A program made the translations under genes and the position numbers. DNA of 17,686 nucleotides from Candidatus Thorarchaeota archaeon (GTDB lineage Archaea > Asgardarchaeota > Thorarchaeia > Thorarchaeales > Thorarchaeaceae). Shown one piece after another: positions 6,320 to 13,896 of this stretch. Under the pieces are notes generated by a model. It worked only from the letters and a program-made list of their open reading frames with translations. It made no database searches and had not been told where the DNA came from. The stretch is taken from assembly GCA_016840385.1 (NCBI GenBank), contig JAEOSL010000071.1, positions 1 to 17,686 of the forward strand, read 5' to 3'. The stretch's first letter is position 1. Each line of letters opens with the position of its first letter.

Positions 6320-7000
6320 TCAGCCTTCGGCTTCTCTTTCGCGTTCTTCTTTGGCTTCCTTCTCAAGGTCAGCCAATAGGTCATCTATACGTTTCTCTCC
6401 GGCCTTTTCAGCTGATCCTTCAGCAGGTTTAGTGCGGCTCCCTTCAACTTCAAGAGGCGGGAGTACACCTTCCTTCTCCAGAAGAATCTCAGCTTCCATT
6501 GCATCGAGTTGACGATCTACACGTTCGTCGGACTCAATGGTGGAATCTGCACCAGTCAAGTCTTCTGACAGTAATTCACCAGCGATTGAGATGTGTTCGA
6601 ATGACTCAGATAATTTGTCCAGCTGCATCTGAATTTCTTCAGGACGGAGCATAGATCGTGCTTCAGTCAATGCATCGTTTGCAATAGTGAAAGCACGCAA
6701 GACATCAGCTTGAGTCTTTGCTTCTTCTAAATTCAAAAGAGCAGTTTCAAGTGTTAGGAATTGTTGTTTATATCTACCTTTTCGATTCTCTAAATCTACA
6801 ACTATACTCAGATGAGACCTAGCCATGGTCCGGCTGCCTTTAGACATTGCTTCCTTAGCTGCTTTTTGCTCCTCGACCATTCTAGTCTCGAGTCTTCGTA
6901 CTCGCAGGGTCAATGCATTCATTGTACCCTTCATCTCGAGGATGCCACGTTCGGTATCGACTTTCTTCTTGCCGCTTAGGAAGCCCATTGCAACCACCAT
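6320..7000 (-). CDS. ESCRT-III (Snf7/CHMP family) protein
   Basis: ESCRT-III proteins polymerise on membranes and drive fission or cell division, and are pulled apart by Vps4. The 226-residue protein shows the family layout: a short basic start (MGFLSGKKK), a long basic helical hairpin (about 20-90) with LENRKGRYKQQ matching the conserved RK-RYEKQ region of CHMPs, then acidic helices (about 95-170). After a Pro-containing linker (PPLEVE, 181-186) the tail carries EKRIDDLLADLE at 202-213, which matches the spacing of the MIM1 Vps4-binding motif (acidic-xx-L-xx-R-L-xx-L-K) with some substitutions. The start may be ATG 7000 or ATG 6988; the latter has GGTGG before it. A TTAAATG box lies at 7034-7040. 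No Vps4, ESCRT-II or ubiquitin gene is in the window, so this copy stands apart from such a cluster. Confidence 0.88.
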   Translation of the reverse strand: MVVAMGFLSGKKKVDTERGILEMKGTMNALTLRVRRLETRMVEEQKAAKEAMSKGSRTMARSHLSIVVDLENRKGRYKQQFLTLETALLNLEEAKTQADVLRAFTIANDALTEARSMLRPEEIQMQLDKLSESFEHISIAGELLSEDLTGADSTIESDERVDRQLDAMEAEILLEKEGVLPPLEVEGSRTKPAEGSAEKAGEKRIDDLLADLEKEAKEEREREAEG

Positions 7001-8886: not shown

Positions 8887-9369
8887 CTAGTCCTCTTCAC
8901 TCTCTTCCTCTATTGATTTTTCAATCTCATCGAGATCAGGTTCTTCCTCTTCTTCTTGGTCTTCAAGCGGAATATCCTCAGCAGTTTCTTCAACAATTTC
9001 CTCAGTTTCGGTTTCATCAACTGCTTCGTCAGATTCTTCTTCTTCCTCATCATCGTCCTCGTCGGAGTCATCCTCTTTAGCAACGGATGTGTCACCAGGT
9101 TTGAGTTTGATGATATACAGATAACCAATAGTTAAGCTCACGAGCCCAAGAAGTAATGTTACCCAAAGGGTACCATCAATACCCCACCAATTCGCAGGAT
9201 TGATCGTCAATTCAGTACGTGGAACATCGAAGAATACATGCTGGAACCACATAGGAATGGTGAATGCCAACGGTATGCATATAGTCACCAGCAGAATGAT
9301 GGATATGATAATCTCTGCTGTGTAATTCAATATTCGTTTAAGAGTGCTATCAACTGCTTTCTTTGCCAT
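8887..9369 (-). CDS. Two-helix membrane protein with a highly acidic C-terminal tail
   Basis: The function is not recognised. From the ATG at 9369 the protein has 160 residues: a basic N-terminus, a hydrophobic helix at about 18-40, a roughly 25-residue loop with three Trp (positions 41, 61, 62), a second helix at about 68-88, then LKLKPGD-like polar residues and a tail from 99 to 160 that is about two-thirds Asp and Glu. The basic N-terminus and even helix number suggest both ends face the cytosol. A longer frame from 9477 would add 36 residues (Cys- and Pro-containing) over what looks like the promoter: a minus-strand TTTTAATG at 9411-9418 fits the later start. It converges on mrp with 44 bases between the stops. 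Confidence 0.7.
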   Translation of the reverse strand: MAKKAVDSTLKRILNYTAEIIISIILLVTICIPLAFTIPMWFQHVFFDVPRTELTINPANWWGIDGTLWVTLLLGLVSLTIGYLYIIKLKPGDTSVAKEDDSDEDDDEEEEESDEAVDETETEEIVEETAEDIPLEDQEEEEEPDLDEIEKSIEEESEED

Positions 9370-9410
9370 TGACACGGTATCTCGCCTTGGCTTGGCACAC
9401 TTTGCAACTC

Positions 9411-9418
9411 CATTAAAA
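9411..9418 (-). promoter_or_regulatory. TATA-like box of the acidic-tail protein
   Basis: Minus-strand TTTTAATG lies 42-49 bases before the ATG at 9369. It supports the short form of the protein. Confidence 0.35.
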
Positions 9419-9510
9419 CCTTCTGGATGAAAAACGATTGTACAACAAAACTCTGTGAAGACTTGAATGACGCTCAATCAAAGTGGATAATCACTTCATT
9501 GATGTTATTG

Positions 9511-9626
9511 AAGAAGAAGGAGGAGAGAGGGGGGTCCAATAAAGAGAGGGGAGGGAGTGACAGATTCATGATGGTCGCGTTTGGACCCCCAGTCTAATTA
9601 ATAATAGGATATAATAACATATAAGC
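9511..9626 (+). repeat. Purine-rich stem/promoter element, copy A
   Basis: From left to right: a GA-rich tract beginning AAGAAG; GGGGGTCCAA (9530-9539); 41 mostly purine bases; the exact complement TTGGACCCCC (9581-9590); ten bases; then ATAATAG and an AT-rich block ending TAAGC (9601-9626) that contains a TATA-like CATATAAGC. The same order and near-identical spacing occur in copy B (11263-11383). It lies between divergent genes, so it cannot simply be a transcription terminator for either. The TAAGC block sits 43 bases before the ATG at 9669. Confidence 0.6.
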
Positions 9627-9668
9627 ATTGCTGATATCTACGCCGAGAATTATAGCTCAATATTATTT

Positions 9669-10310
9669 ATGAGAAAACTTATCGGTAGAAAATACAATAG
9701 TCGGAAGTTACAAACAGGCAAATTCCAGCGGGCGGTTACTGTGAATGACGCATTGAAATCAAATTGGGAGAACAAAGTAGTTGTAATCCTATTTGCTATA
9801 ATAGCCCTTGGATTCTTAGTTTCAGGAGTGTCGGGATCCGCCTGGCAAATCCTCACCTTGACTGATTTCAACTTCTACTTGGTTATCCTCTCAATCGTGT
9901 TAGCTGTAACAGCAGGAGCTCTCCTGACTTATTCATTCGTATCATTCTTTCAGAGTCGCGAAGTTAAGCATCTTATGCTACTTGTGATGAGCGTGAATAT
10001 TGTAATCTGGATAATCCTGTTTCTCCTCTCACACCCATCATCTATAGATTGGTCTATTAACTTCGCGAATAGAGACCGTAACCGCACACTAGCTATGGCA
10101 TTGGTTTTGATCGTTATCCCTACAATTATTCTTGGTTCATTTACAGGTGAAATGAAACCATCAAGACCCAGTGTGTTCCTCCTAATCCTCTGGGGAGCAA
10201 TCATTCTACCGATTCTGAGTTTGTTCCTGTTTTTCAGCCCCGATCCTCTATTCATTATGGTCACATCGGGAGGAATACAAGGATTAACTCCAATAGGAGC
10301 AGCGGATTAA
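9669..10310 (+). CDS. Five-helix membrane protein, end altered by a tandem duplication
   Basis: The function is not recognised. The 213 residues start with a basic cytosolic-type segment (MRKLIGRKYNSRKLQ) and contain five hydrophobic helices at about 36-58, 66-93, 100-122, 138-160 and 168-190. Positively charged loops (QSREVKH, EMKPSRPS) suggest the N-terminus is inside. The last codons and the TAA lie in the second unit of a 23-base tandem repeat (10281-10326). Without one unit the protein would continue for about 18 more polar residues to a TGA at 10379-10381. The next gene, kinase-like, is in the same frame 78 bases on, so the two may be sensor and kinase partners or pieces of one former gene. 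Copy A of the repeat element provides the likely promoter. Confidence 0.65.
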   Translation: MRKLIGRKYNSRKLQTGKFQRAVTVNDALKSNWENKVVVILFAIIALGFLVSGVSGSAWQILTLTDFNFYLVILSIVLAVTAGALLTYSFVSFFQSREVKHLMLLVMSVNIVIWIILFLLSHPSSIDWSINFANRDRNRTLAMALVLIVIPTIILGSFTGEMKPSRPSVFLLILWGAIILPILSLFLFFSPDPLFIMVTSGGIQGLTPIGAAD

Positions 10311-10326
10311 CTCCAATAGGAGCAGA
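10281..10326 (+). repeat. 23-base tandem duplication
   Basis: Two adjacent units, 10281-10303 and 10304-10326, are identical at 22 of 23 positions (each starts GGATTAACTCC). The period is not a multiple of three, so it shifts the frame of the membrane-protein gene and creates its TAA. Confidence 0.9.
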
Positions 10327-10391
10327 TAATCACACTCCCCTGGTTAATTCAGAAATGTCGAAAGACCAGAAATTCAACTGATCTTTCTTTG

Positions 10392-11252
10392 ATGTTAGCT
10401 TTAACGCTCTGGATTATAGGAACTCTCTTTATTATCATTCTCTGGGACCCACTTCAGAGTGCAGAGTTGCTATGGATTAGCTCAATAATTGCAGGATTCT
10501 TACTTATTGGAATATCCCAATTTATGAATGCAATAATTCACCCACATAGATTTCTTGAACAAAAGGTGCAACAGAGAACAAGAGAATTAAATCGGTCAAT
10601 AAGTGAAAGTGAATTTTACCTCAAGATGTGGACTCATAAAATGGGAAATCTATTACAGGGAATGGTCACATATCTCGATATTCTGGAACATGCAGCTCAG
10701 CATAGTGAAGAAGATGCAGATACGAGAACAGCTGCAAGAAATCTTAGTCGAGAAGCAACATTTGTCAATCATCAAGTAAGTCAACTCACTAGAATCAAAG
10801 AAAGTTTGTATGAATCATTATGGCCAGTGAATATTGTTCATGTTCTTGAAGAGGCAATAGAATCAGCTGGAGAAATAATCGGAGAAGATAATTTCAGTGT
10901 CCAATTTACTAAAACAAAGAGTTTCTCTATTACAGCTGATGGTTTTCTCCCACTAGTTTTCCAGAGTTTATTCATTTTTCATATCAAGAAAGGAATCAAC
11001 GACGGTAATCAATTCAAAATAACAATGAGTTCTGAAGATGACTCCCACATCATTACTATCAATTCACGGGGAAAAGAAATACCCGGCGAGTTTATTGAAT
11101 TCATGGAAGGAGATCAGAATGTCGAACAGATTGCCCTTGATTTAAACCTCTTCACTATGAAACTATTAATGACCAGATACAATGCTCGAATTCTATGTAC
11201 ACGAAATGAAGAAATTTTTGAGAATTCCTGTTCACTCATTTTCCCAAGTTGA
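10392..11252 (+). CDS. Degenerate membrane-bound histidine-kinase-like protein
   Basis: Two helices at about 3-20 and 28-50 anchor the N-terminus. They are followed by a coiled linker (LEQKVQQRTRELN) and a HisKA-like helix with a candidate phospho-acceptor His in WTHKMGNLLQG. The C-terminal part is about as long as an HATPase domain but lacks its standard motifs: no Asn-rich N box at LFIFHIKKG, NSRGKEIP where a DxGxG is expected, and no GLGL lid motif. It is probably unable to bind ATP normally and may act as a scaffold, a phosphotransfer partner or a decaying kinase. The ATG at 10392 is preceded by an in-frame TTG. It follows the five-helix protein and ends 10 bases before element copy B. 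No response regulator is nearby. Confidence 0.6.
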   Translation: MLALTLWIIGTLFIIILWDPLQSAELLWISSIIAGFLLIGISQFMNAIIHPHRFLEQKVQQRTRELNRSISESEFYLKMWTHKMGNLLQGMVTYLDILEHAAQHSEEDADTRTAARNLSREATFVNHQVSQLTRIKESLYESLWPVNIVHVLEEAIESAGEIIGEDNFSVQFTKTKSFSITADGFLPLVFQSLFIFHIKKGINDGNQFKITMSSEDDSHIITINSRGKEIPGEFIEFMEGDQNVEQIALDLNLFTMKLLMTRYNARILCTRNEEIFENSCSLIFPS

Positions 11253-11262
11253 AGATAGAACA

Positions 11263-11383
11263 AAGAAGTAAGAGAGAAGAGAGGGGGTCCGAAGAGAACA
11301 TGGAAGGAAAGAGAGAAACATTGTTTCTGAGAGAGAAGGACCCCCTGGCCCTTACGAGATAATAGTATTGAATATATTTAAGC
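11263..11383 (+). repeat. Purine-rich stem/promoter element, copy B
   Basis: Same architecture as 9511-9626: a GA tract starting AAGAAG, GGGGGTCC (11283-11290), a purine-rich interior of 47 bases, GGACCCCC (11338-11345), 13 bases, then ATAATAG and an AT block ending TTTAAGC (11359-11383). The interior also has a small hairpin, AGAAAC-ATT-GTTTCT. It begins 10 bases after the kinase-like gene and precedes the radical SAM gene. Confidence 0.6.
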
Positions 11384-11460
11384 GAATGTATGATTGCGGA
11401 TAATTATACTACAAAATTAGCCTAAAAATTGACATTTCTATCATCATTATGTCTGCTTAC

Positions 11461-11469
11461 ACTTATACT
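11461..11469 (+). promoter_or_regulatory. Proximal TATA-like box of the radical SAM gene
   Basis: ACTTATACT lies 26-34 bases before the ATG at 11495, at leaderless spacing. It would act in addition to the promoter-like block in element copy B. Confidence 0.3.
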
Positions 11470-11494
11470 GTTTCACGTATTGTGCAACTCTACA

Positions 11495-12382
11495 ATGAAT
11501 CATAACAATGAAGAAATTAGATATGCAACTAAAAACGAGCGAGGAGAATATTTACCACCCTTTCCAGTTGACCCCATATCTCTCACTGAACAAACACGAC
11601 GTACTGTATGCAAAACATCTGATGGAGTACCTTTACGAAAATATACAAGATTCTATGCAGTAGGAGTGTATGGCGGAATCGCTACAGCCTACTCAGTTGG
11701 CTGTAACTATCGCTGCACATTTTGCTGGGTTGATTGGAGTCGAGACTGGCCAGAGAAGTATGGCGAGTTCTATTCTCCATCTGACGTGTATCAAAAACTC
11801 AGACAAATCATGAAAGTCCAGGATATTCGCAGAGCACGAATCAGTGGTGCAGAACCTACACTATGTCCCTCACATCTCTTGGGTGTGCTCGAACTTGTAC
11901 ACAGAGACCGCGAGGATTTCGATCTATTCGTCATCGAATCGAATGGAGTCGTATTCTCACAAGATCAGGACCTTGTGAATAATCTAGCCAGATACGCGTC
12001 CACTGATACGAACACCGTAGGACACGTTAGACTATCAATACGTGGCGGACTCCCTCAGCCGTTTGAAGAGAAGACAGGATGTCAAGGCAAGTTTGTTGAC
12101 CTCCCCTATATCGCGGCTCAGAAACTAAGGGATGCTAACGTATCATTCCATGTTGCAGTTGTAGTCGATCCTCGATTCACAACCGAGGAAGAAAAACAGG
12201 TCATCTACAACAAACTTTCAGACATCGACAAATCAATTAGAGAAAATGTAGAGGAAGAGTACCTAGATCCATACCCTCACGCCCTTGTTAGACTACGAGC
12301 AGTTGGTAGAGAAGATGTTACCGGTAAGGAAGTTTCTCGAGTAGAAGAATCAAGGCTGAGAGAGCGGCCCGAGGAGATATAG
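11495..12382 (+). CDS. Radical SAM enzyme of unknown specificity
   Basis: Radical SAM enzymes use a [4Fe-4S] cluster to cleave S-adenosylmethionine and start radical chemistry. The cluster motif CxxxCxxC is Cys70-NYR-Cys74-TF-Cys77, followed by WVDWSRDW and YSPSDV. The SAM-binding GGE-like motif is ISGAEPT at 116-122. The barrel core ends about residue 240, and the last 50 residues are highly charged. There is no second Cys-rich cluster domain, although Cys39, Cys124 and one in TGCQGK remain. The 295-residue ATG form is preferred. A TTG at 11429 would add 22 hydrophobic residues, but these overlie likely promoter sequence and a membrane segment would be unusual. The subfamily and product are not recognised. 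Confidence 0.82.
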   Translation: MNHNNEEIRYATKNERGEYLPPFPVDPISLTEQTRRTVCKTSDGVPLRKYTRFYAVGVYGGIATAYSVGCNYRCTFCWVDWSRDWPEKYGEFYSPSDVYQKLRQIMKVQDIRRARISGAEPTLCPSHLLGVLELVHRDREDFDLFVIESNGVVFSQDQDLVNNLARYASTDTNTVGHVRLSIRGGLPQPFEEKTGCQGKFVDLPYIAAQKLRDANVSFHVAVVVDPRFTTEEEKQVIYNKLSDIDKSIRENVEEEYLDPYPHALVRLRAVGREDVTGKEVSRVEESRLRERPEEI

Positions 12383-12402
12383 GTCACTAAAAACAATAAA
12401 AA

Positions 12403-12449
12403 TTGCACTTATTGCAAGTTCCAAACCCCATATTGCGATATTCGCAATA
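12403..12449. promoter_or_regulatory. Two related palindromes, possible operator
   Basis: TTGCA-CTTAT-TGCAA (12403-12417) and the perfect TATTGCGA-TAT-TCGCAATA (12431-12449) share the half-site TTGC and lie 13 bases apart, between the radical SAM stop and the next promoter. They have no T-run, so a regulator site is more likely than a terminator. Confidence 0.4.
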
Positions 12450-12481
12450 AATTAATAGGGTAGTTGAATATATCACAATTC

Positions 12482-12499
12482 TTATATACAAATTTGTAT
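12482..12499 (+). promoter_or_regulatory. Strong TATA box overlapping a perfect palindrome
   Basis: TTATATAC (12482-12489) is followed by, and shares bases with, the 14-base perfect palindrome ATACAAATTTGTAT (12486-12499). Initiation about 26 bases on would start near 12511. A dimeric repressor bound to the palindrome would block transcription. Confidence 0.45.
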
Positions 12500-12510
12500 T
12501 AATTATATTT

Positions 12511-12600
12511 GAAGTGTGAGAGGCGCTTTCCCTCCTGAAATCCTAACACACATACTCTCCTCCTCAAACGCAAGCAACTAATTTTAGCGCCTCTCATCCT
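12511..12600 (+). ncRNA. Candidate structured small RNA
   Basis: The 327-base gap 12383-12709 has no gene I can support. After the TATA box an 11-base perfect stem closes: TGAGAGGCGCT (12517-12527) pairs with AGCGCCTCTCA (12586-12596). The 58-base loop is rich in C and T and contains CCCTCCT (12530-12536) and CTCTCCTCCTC (12555-12565), which resemble the anti-Shine-Dalgarno of 16S rRNA. A T7 run at about 12642-12648 could be a termination signal. No start codon opens an ORF in it. It could instead be the leader of the methyltransferase mRNA. It has no C/D or H/ACA box that I can see. Confidence 0.4.
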
Positions 12601-12709
12601 TTGCATTTTGCCGCGCTACCGCACCTTTCTTCTCTTGGAATTTTTTTCTCGGAGTGAATACACTCAAAAGATGAAACACTAGCTAGGAAGTATATTTGGA
12701 GAAGATCAG

Positions 12710-13357
12710 ATGTGTCCAGAAAGAACTCCAGAAATGTTTGATGCATGGTCCTCAGATTATGATAATTACATAGGGATTGGAAAACTCTCTTTTCCGTTTA
12801 GTGGCTACGATAATGTGTTAGATAGAATCGTTGAGCTGGCTAATCCTAAGCCAGGCCTAAAGATTCTGGATATAGGTATTGGGACAGGTAACCTTGCACA
12901 GAAGTTTCTCGAGTATGAATGTGAGATCTGGGGAATTGATTACTCCTCAAGTATGCTGGAGGAAGCAAAGAAGAAGCTACCAAATGTCAAACTAGTACTT
13001 GCTGACATTATGTCAGAATGGCCATCAGATCTTAGAATTGGTTTTGATAGGATTGTATCAGCATATACTCTCCACCACTTGAGAATTGAAGAAAAAGTTA
13101 CAGCAGTACAGAGAATGGCTAAAGAACTACTCAGAGAGAATGGGAGATTAATTATCGGCGATATCTCTTTTCTAACTGCCGAAGCACGCGTCAAAGCACG
13201 AGCCAATCTCGAAAAAGTGTGGGATGATGATGAGTACTACTGGGCCGCAGATGAATTCAAAGATATGATGTTGGGAAAGGGATTCACTATTGATTATGAA
13301 CAAATTTCGGAGTATGGAGGTATCTACATCATCAAGTACAAACAAAATCGGAGTTGA
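12710..13357 (+). CDS. Class I SAM-dependent methyltransferase
   Basis: A 215-residue Rossmann-fold methyltransferase. Motif I is ILDIGIGTGNLA (52-63); Asp77 in GIDYS is the acidic residue binding the SAM ribose; VLADI (96-100) is the next strand; and FDRIVSAYTLHHL (112-124) is the motif IV region with the common small-molecule-methyltransferase pattern. The N-terminus (FDAWSSDYDNY) is typical of UbiE/YrrT-like enzymes. The substrate is unknown. GGAG at 12698-12701 lies eight bases before the ATG, one of the few plausible Shine-Dalgarno sequences here, which would fit a leader such as the upstream RNA. The gene converges on the next one with eight bases between stops. Confidence 0.85.
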   Translation: MCPERTPEMFDAWSSDYDNYIGIGKLSFPFSGYDNVLDRIVELANPKPGLKILDIGIGTGNLAQKFLEYECEIWGIDYSSSMLEEAKKKLPNVKLVLADIMSEWPSDLRIGFDRIVSAYTLHHLRIEEKVTAVQRMAKELLRENGRLIIGDISFLTAEARVKARANLEKVWDDDEYYWAADEFKDMMLGKGFTIDYEQISEYGGIYIIKYKQNRS

Positions 13358-13365
13358 TTATTCCG

Positions 13366-13896
13366 CTAGATGGTGGGTATCATATTCATGACAATCGGAG
13401 CATAACCGTGTGAGAACACTTCTACAACAAATGGATCACTAGCCTCAGCGACCTTGGTCCACGATTCATTGTCCCGCCTATAGTATGCAAAATGAGAGTT
13501 ACCATGGCGAATCTCAATAATGGATTTGGTTGGAAGTTGGGTTAGATCCTTGGTGACAAGATAGGTTGAGGAATCTGATGATTCTTCTTCTGGTTGTGAG
13601 AGATATACTGAAAAAATACCAGAAACATCTGGAAGAAGCAAGGCAACATGCGGTCTGTCAACTGGATTCCATTTCTTCGGCACGGGGGGATAGCGGCAGG
13701 TGAACGCACCCGAAGCCGAACGGAGAACCAAATACGTCCCTTCATCAATCGATGACATGTCTGTGTTAACCTCTAGGGTGCTGTCGTATCGATCCAACCT
13801 TTTTTCTGACAAGTTGTACTTTCCATCAGACCTTGAAGTATCTATTGATGGTGTACCACTGTCATTGTCGGAGAAACTGCCTGTCACAAGATACAT
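13366..13896 (-). CDS. Hypothetical protein, no recognised family
   Basis: A 176-residue soluble protein with no signal peptide or membrane helix. It is rich in Ser, Asp and aromatic residues with alternating hydrophobic stretches (TYLVLRSASGAFTCRY, HVALLLPDVSGIFSVYL, HFAYYRRDNESW), which suggests a mostly beta fold. There are no catalytic motifs I can name. A very good TATA sequence, minus-strand GGTTATATACT at 13908-13918, lies only 12-22 bases before the ATG at 13896. A leaderless start at the GTG of residue 4 (13887) would fit the promoter better. Codon use looks like its neighbours. Confidence 0.6.
   Translation of the reverse strand: MYLVTGSFSDNDSGTPSIDTSRSDGKYNLSEKRLDRYDSTLEVNTDMSSIDEGTYLVLRSASGAFTCRYPPVPKKWNPVDRPHVALLLPDVSGIFSVYLSQPEEESSDSSTYLVTKDLTQLPTKSIIEIRHGNSHFAYYRRDNESWTKVAEASDPFVVEVFSHGYAPIVMNMIPTI

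Follow-up and report, generated by a model that had tools for sequence, protein, structure and literature searches.

Three short elements of a Candidatus Thorarchaeota contig, here called E1, E2 and E3, are very probably genes for small non-coding RNAs, as predicted by comparing sequences among relatives. In the window, that is, the whole 17,686-base stretch that was analysed, they share one locus flanked by F1 and F3, two conserved protein genes. The elements are conserved and syntenic, their stems show compensatory changes, TATA-like boxes are placed on their 5' sides and their loops are enriched in CCUCC. In the proposed account, every RNA would be transcribed from a TATA promoter of its own and would consist of a terminal stem rich in G+C and a long, open loop rich in C and U. 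E2 and E1 would follow one another on the minus strand, with E3 divergent from them. The stem might shield the RNA and display the loop, whose CCUCC-type anti-Shine-Dalgarno (anti-SD) segments would base-pair in trans with mRNAs where translation starts and keep ribosomes from binding there. The whole statement, of three separately transcribed RNAs from one locus with anti-SD masking in trans, is modestly favoured.

The locus and its neighbours

A sequence-only reading of this DNA had drawn two elements on the plus strand, and both exist as drawn, with all landmarks located at both sites. In E1 these are a GA tract (9510-9534), GGGGGTCC (9530-9537), GGACCCCC (9583-9590) and a block running from ATAATAG to TAAGC (9601-9626, 26 nt); in E2 the GA tract is at 11270-11287, GGGGGTCC at 11283-11290, GGACCCCC at 11338-11345 and the block at 11359-11383 (25 nt). 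The window contains no other GGGGGTCC/GGACCCCC inverted repeats. Read on the minus strand, both elements present a TATA-like box, a 5' stem arm, a C/U-rich loop, a 3' arm and a pyrimidine-rich tail, in that order. The landmarks are best explained if the ATAATAG...TAAGC block contains the TATA box of an RNA, read backwards, GGGGGTCC/GGACCCCC forms the terminal stem of this RNA and the purine tract is its 3' tail. E1 and E2 are probably small non-coding RNA genes of the other strand, and not promoters of neighbouring genes.

The predicted E1 gene covers about 9510-9594 (minus strand, ends estimated), with a 10-bp stem (9530-9539 with 9581-9590), a pyrimidine-rich 3' tail (9510-9529) and an open, C/U-rich loop that contains CCUCC. 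E2 is predicted at about 11262-11351 (minus strand, ends likewise estimated) and has a 9-bp stem (11282-11290 with 11338-11346), a C/U-rich loop with a small hairpin, and a pyrimidine-rich 3' tail. The loops between the arms measure 45 nt in E1 and 47 nt in E2. E3, absent from the earlier reading, first showed up in the intergenic DNA of more distant relatives, as a third inverted repeat that separates E2 from the conserved gene that follows. In the window it is a predicted small non-coding RNA at 12510-12605 on the plus strand (estimated ends), diverging from E2, with a stem at 12517-12527 and 12586-12596 and two CCUCC motifs in the loop. It has the same build as E1 and E2 and a TATA-like box of its own. 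Its loop is conserved blockwise (CUCCCUCCUGAAAUCC; ACACAUCCUCUCCUCC; CUCAAGCAACCAAGCGAAC, with variations). In some relatives (L090-L100), sequence-variable hairpins are inserted at the same points between the conserved single-stranded blocks of E3.

The fixed neighbours are F1 on the E1 side (8887..9372, minus strand) and F3 on the E3 side (13366..13896, minus strand), both conserved protein genes with no Pfam match. In the window and at the loci of 15 relatives, as far as contigs allow, the order is F1 (minus), E1, variable genes, E2, variable genes, F3. Between E1 and E2 the window carries F16, a sensor-like gene in two pieces (9669..11252, plus strand), which is a variable insert outside the RNA locus proper. 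The F16 family occupies this place in the window, G023, G024, G030, G031 and G034, and is missing from the interval elsewhere; other inserts here are F19, on the minus strand (G001, G020, G024, G028), and F27 (G024). Only in the window and in G001 is E2 followed by a radical SAM gene.

Several side observations concern the neighbourhood itself. The F1-F3 interval (9669-13357) is a hot spot of gene insertion, where F16, F19, F22, F23, F27, the radical SAM gene and a methyltransferase gene occur in differing combinations. F16 consists of two ORFs in the window (213 and 287 aa) and is likewise in two pieces in G034; it is a single ORF of 506-526 aa in G023, G024, G030 and G031. A 22-base tandem duplicate (10281-10302 and 10304-10325) is found in the F16 region. 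Relatives of the radical SAM protein occur at six loci in the genome collection, five on Ca. Thorarchaeota contigs (67-82% identity) and one in Methanocellales (48%). A homologue of Snf7 (ESCRT-III) lies at 6320-7000 (minus strand) within the same conserved neighbourhood.

How widely is the locus distributed? The relatives searched are 47 genomes from a single class, the one that includes Ca. Thorarchaeota and G001 (the genome of contig SOKL01000081). Used as a DNA query, E2 matches 15 of the 47 (13 strongly, and two by short matches inside open frames) and E1 matches 14; that the likeness of the two elements is not due to chance, as had been supposed, is upheld by these matches. Three short E2 matches that fall within open frames were rejected, in G027 (134 codons), G028 (134 codons) and G005 (548 codons). 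In 12 genomes both strong matches are on one contig, in constant order and orientation and about 0.1 to 3.4 kb apart. The region after F2 was taken from 17 genomes, and 16 were analysed, the G026 piece being too short; an F1-F3 or F1-F5 interval with inverted repeats around C/U-rich loops is present in 14 of them. The best F2 match of G003 and G010 is without an adjoining F1, and the RNAs of G010 lie on another contig.

One covariance model each for E2, E1 and E3 was searched against 227 genomes from the phylum, a number at which stricter filters apply. The models match 21, 17 and 26 genomes, of which 13, 14 and 19 are training genomes. Beyond the training set, the E2 model has its match at the syntenic position in seven genomes and a false one in G045; the E1 model finds G027, known from the DNA search, and G045, both credited, with a false match in G120; the E3 model adds G009, G010, G017, G028, G032 and G047. 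E3 of G009, G010, G028, G032 and G047 lies in the same interval as in the training genomes, and E3 of G017 has different neighbours, near a contig start. Matches left uncredited are those of the E2 model in G045 and G042:C104 (inside an 865-codon ORF), of the E1 model in G120 (a 606-codon open frame) and of the E3 model in G183 (a 252-codon open frame, without synteny). The other 180 genomes of the phylum gave no convincing match to any of the three models.

By the union of these searches, E1 is credited in 35 of the 47 class genomes, E2 in 35, both in 32, E3 in 25, all three in 20 and at least one in 39; as the genomes are related, the locus counts are not independent. The total for E1 includes G010, read by eye and kept out of the pair and TATA counts. 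E2 is present and E1 unidentified in G014, G039 and G040, and the E2 of G014, which is without the usual core, is the least certain entry. The F1-F3 interval was unrecovered in eight of the 47 (G003, G005, G016, G026, G035, G036, G041, G044). Nearly all credited RNAs sit in a single interval with the same protein genes on either side, at no more than one credited locus per model per genome (the two E2 matches of G002 are overlapping contig ends), which is not the pattern of a dispersed or mobile repeat. The elements had also been viewed as repeats through which the enclosed genes could be lost or gained. Genomes without the enclosed segment were looked for and do exist: G022, G025, G029 and G033 keep E1 and E2 with no fitting gene between them, just short ORFs that overlap the elements. 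The repeat view itself loses ground, as the 32 genomes with both elements have them whatever sits between. No Rfam family reached its gathering score for the elements, none appeared at E up to 1 for 9400-12700, and a plasmid collection held no match to the E1 stretch.

Loops and possible modes of action

CCUCC is present in 25 of 35 E1 loops, 29 of 36 E2 loops and all 20 E3 loops, against shuffle expectations of 12.4, 7.3 and 7.1, respectively; the window's own E2 is without it. The 3' end of 16S rRNA is GGATCACCTCCT in three of four genomes inspected (the pattern missed it in the fourth). With a crude choice of starts, SD-like motifs precede 51 of 410 ORFs, with a peak at -13, vs 27 of 410 further upstream. 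The loop motif, the 16S end and the SD-like motifs together lead to the proposal that the RNAs act in trans and mask ribosome-binding sites. In some loops, CAU lies just 5' of the C-rich segment (CAU followed by C[U/C]CC within 2-8 nt in 5 E1, 13 E2 and 16 E3 loops, a count without shuffle control), and such a loop would be complementary to the SD sequence, the spacer and AUG. Three siblings might provide partly redundant or differently timed control.

Which mRNAs could be the targets? Beyond the locus, exact 14-base complements of the E3 core occur at three sites, each within a long open frame (473-1004 codons), and those of the E2 core at ten sites, most of them in open frames; neither core gave a shared target. 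At L161 (G019), GAAGGAGGAGAGAGAATG places an SD sequence directly before ATG and is an exact complement of the E2 core; it was seen in one genome only. Complementarity to 16S rRNA (four genomes) or 23S rRNA (three genomes) is not above control, as 9 to 100 of 100 shuffles reach the longest match. Because a conserved exact target and rRNA complementarity did not emerge from these searches and the E2 of the window is without CCUCC, the anti-SD mechanism is held tentatively, at just short of an even chance.

Its chief rival keeps the same three RNA genes and lets them act via a protein, which would bind the C/U-rich strand displayed by the stem, either as a sponge or as the RNA of a ribonucleoprotein, with no mRNA pairing. 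The conserved unpaired segments are far longer than an anti-SD motif requires (the E3 core extends over about 40 nt), and the want of a conserved exact target for the E2 and E3 cores and of CCUCC in the window's E2 points the same way. The enrichment of CCUCC beyond shuffles speaks against it, and this role is considered rather unlikely. A broader reading, possible though loosely held, takes in both modes of action: a class-particular Asgard locus of three core non-coding RNAs may serve general translation-initiation control or supply the RNA part of a ribonucleoprotein, and this locus would stay in one chromosomal interval while the surrounding genes come and go.

TATA-like boxes, stem pairing and strand

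The TATA-like boxes of the window are at 9617..9625 for E1 (minus strand; CTTATATGT, with CTTATAT among the conserved letters), 11373..11382 for E2 (minus strand; CTTAAATATA) and 12481..12489 for E3 (plus strand; CTTATATAC). YTTAWATA is a pattern that reflects archaeal TATA boxes; it was picked after the sequences were viewed, and a box was scored when at least 7 of its 8 letters occurred within 60 nt outside the arm, with the mirrored 3' side as control. The loci scored, window included, number 35 for E1, 36 for E2 and 20 for E3. A box is on the 5' side at 34, 30 and 14 of them, vs 5, 1 and 0 on the mirrored side, or 78 vs 6 of the 91 loci pooled, and 67 of the 78 boxes stand 28-37 nt from the arm. 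The A+T fraction at 21-45 nt beyond the 5' arm is 0.72-0.76, and beyond the 3' arm it is 0.58-0.62. The stems themselves give a weak strand hint, with 48 G-U vs 34 A-C pairs when extended, barely favouring the RNA strand. A protein-coding frame running through the elements on the plus strand was considered and rejected on the loop lengths, which cover all three classes modulo 3 (remainders 0/1/2: 11/16/8 for E1, 18/7/11 for E2 and 6/9/5 for E3).

Could E2 and E1 instead be cis elements, E2 as the 3' region of F3 and E1 as the leader of F1, with leader or terminator functions? All four share a strand, and in some genomes nothing separates them, as such a role would have it; yet each RNA has its own TATA-like box, E3 is on the opposite strand, and other genes can occupy the E2-F3 and E1-E2 gaps. 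A conserved block, TTTAAAGG-like or of the GCCAGCAAGTTTTAAAGGAG type, is also found between E1 and F1, downstream of E1, at 25 of 35 loci (L049-L051 among them). The GCCAGCAAGTTTTAAAGGAG-type block before F1 is probably F1's own promoter, and since a TTTAAAGG-like box sits between the two, E1 appears to be independent of F1. A cis role is improbable.

That the three are RNA genes is further suggested by their stems. For E3, a sequence-only alignment of 20 loci, with the ends trimmed at the stem, has 98.4% of cells in the 10-bp stem paired and 33 cells changed on both sides, values reached by 0 of 500 shuffles on each measure; slid registers of the alignment give 0-9 double-changed cells. Two of the five covariation measures for E3 are unclear (double-change pairs, reached in 48 of 500 shuffles, and further pair types, in 462 of 500). 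The E1 arms, registered by hand, are 99.0% paired, with 13 distinct arm pairs and 21 double changes, and the E2 arms, registered in the same way, 91.7% paired, with 21 distinct arm pairs and 43 double changes (0 of 500 shuffles in both cases). The arms used were checked against the sequences. MAFFT alignments, made of 34 of 35 E1 and 35 of 36 E2 loci (the near-identical G030 was left out of both), misregister the E1 and E2 arms and were kept out of the pair counts. RNAalifold found no pairs with double changes in an alignment of close relatives only, a narrow set with arms out of register.

Dinucleotide shuffles equal the strength of the best stem in 8 of 700 cases for E1, 28 of 720 for E2 and 2 of 360 for E3 (18 of 20 E3 loci, owing to a length limit). 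Folding of the window's predicted RNAs gives, for each, a terminal stem around a long and largely unpaired loop, with fold z values of -1.87 (E1), -2.44 (E2) and -3.54 (E3). E1 loops diverge strongly across deep branches. The literal pattern GGGGGTCCN{30,60}GGACCCCC occurs in none of five relatives, so the stem letters themselves are not the conserved part. What had been taken for a real, conserved and structured pair, plausibly regulatory, is borne out by these comparisons.

The plus-strand DNA device that the sequence-only reading had in mind fares less well. As a shared promoter cassette, a G-quadruplex or a cruciform, it would draw on the two copies upstream of plus-strand genes in the window, on the palindromic arms and on the weak G-U excess. 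The position upstream of separate plus-strand genes holds for the window and is not conserved in relatives. A shared plus-strand promoter is unsupported because the enclosed genes change from genome to genome or are missing. Among the neighbours, the radical SAM gene is confined to the window and to G001, and F19 is a minus-strand gene; the TATA-like block lies on the 5' side of the putative minus-strand RNA. A G-quadruplex or pure DNA structure does not agree with arms in which letters, G-runs included, are replaced and pairing is kept, also where long G-runs are lacking (E2 of G015, G018 and G019; E1 of G038), nor with loop sequence that is conserved in its own right. A DNA device is thus very unlikely. 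Least probable of all, with hardly any likelihood, are guide or partner RNAs of rRNA, for which CCGCTAC in 9 of 35 E1 loops, a complement of GTAGCGG close to the 3' end of 16S rRNA, would speak, and against which stand the shuffle controls on 16S and 23S complementarity and the lack of an Rfam match.

Comparison with known systems

Asgard archaea are regarded as the nearest archaeal relatives of eukaryotes. Do they control translation with RNAs antisense to ribosome-binding sites? The triplet poses this question, and with its fixed synteny and covarying stems it constitutes a concrete set of putative regulatory RNAs to seek in metatranscriptomes of uncultured Thorarchaeota. A search of full-text literature, in which most subscription papers are missing, gave no title on Asgard archaeal non-coding RNAs and no RNA locus of such a kind described for archaea among the matches listed.

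Closest in working logic, as far as the cited accounts go, are the alpha-r14 sRNAs of Rhizobiales (NfeR1, SmelA075), of which E1-E3 are not members. These are described as trans-acting sRNAs in which unpaired CCUCCUCCC anti-SD motifs persist as the stem letters diverge; three hairpins in one RNA each carry CCUCCUCCC, and NfeR1 silences ntrB at the ntrB initiation region (PMC3927594, PMC10746234). E1-E3 differ in having one terminal stem and one long open loop per RNA, with three genes together, in their longer conserved loop segments and in their archaeal host, and no sequence relation is shown. Among archaea, the masking of a ribosome-binding site has a precedent in sRNA162 of Methanosarcina mazei, likened here by its description: an unstructured stretch masks the predicted ribosome-binding site, and the RNA has two targeting domains (PMC3510493). 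It is a single sRNA, compared with the three predicted here. In Staphylococcus aureus, RsaA and other C-rich sRNAs are reported to pair with the SD sequence by means of C-rich sequence (PMC3961350); this group is bacterial, and E1-E3 gave no Rfam match, the relation having been checked by Rfam search alone. The Cuckoo RNAs of Rhodobacter, among them CcsR1-4, offer a likeness in arrangement, as sibling sRNAs that lie side by side and, by the published description, are processed from one precursor together with a protein gene (PMC10253847), whereas separate promoters and two strands are predicted for E1-E3.
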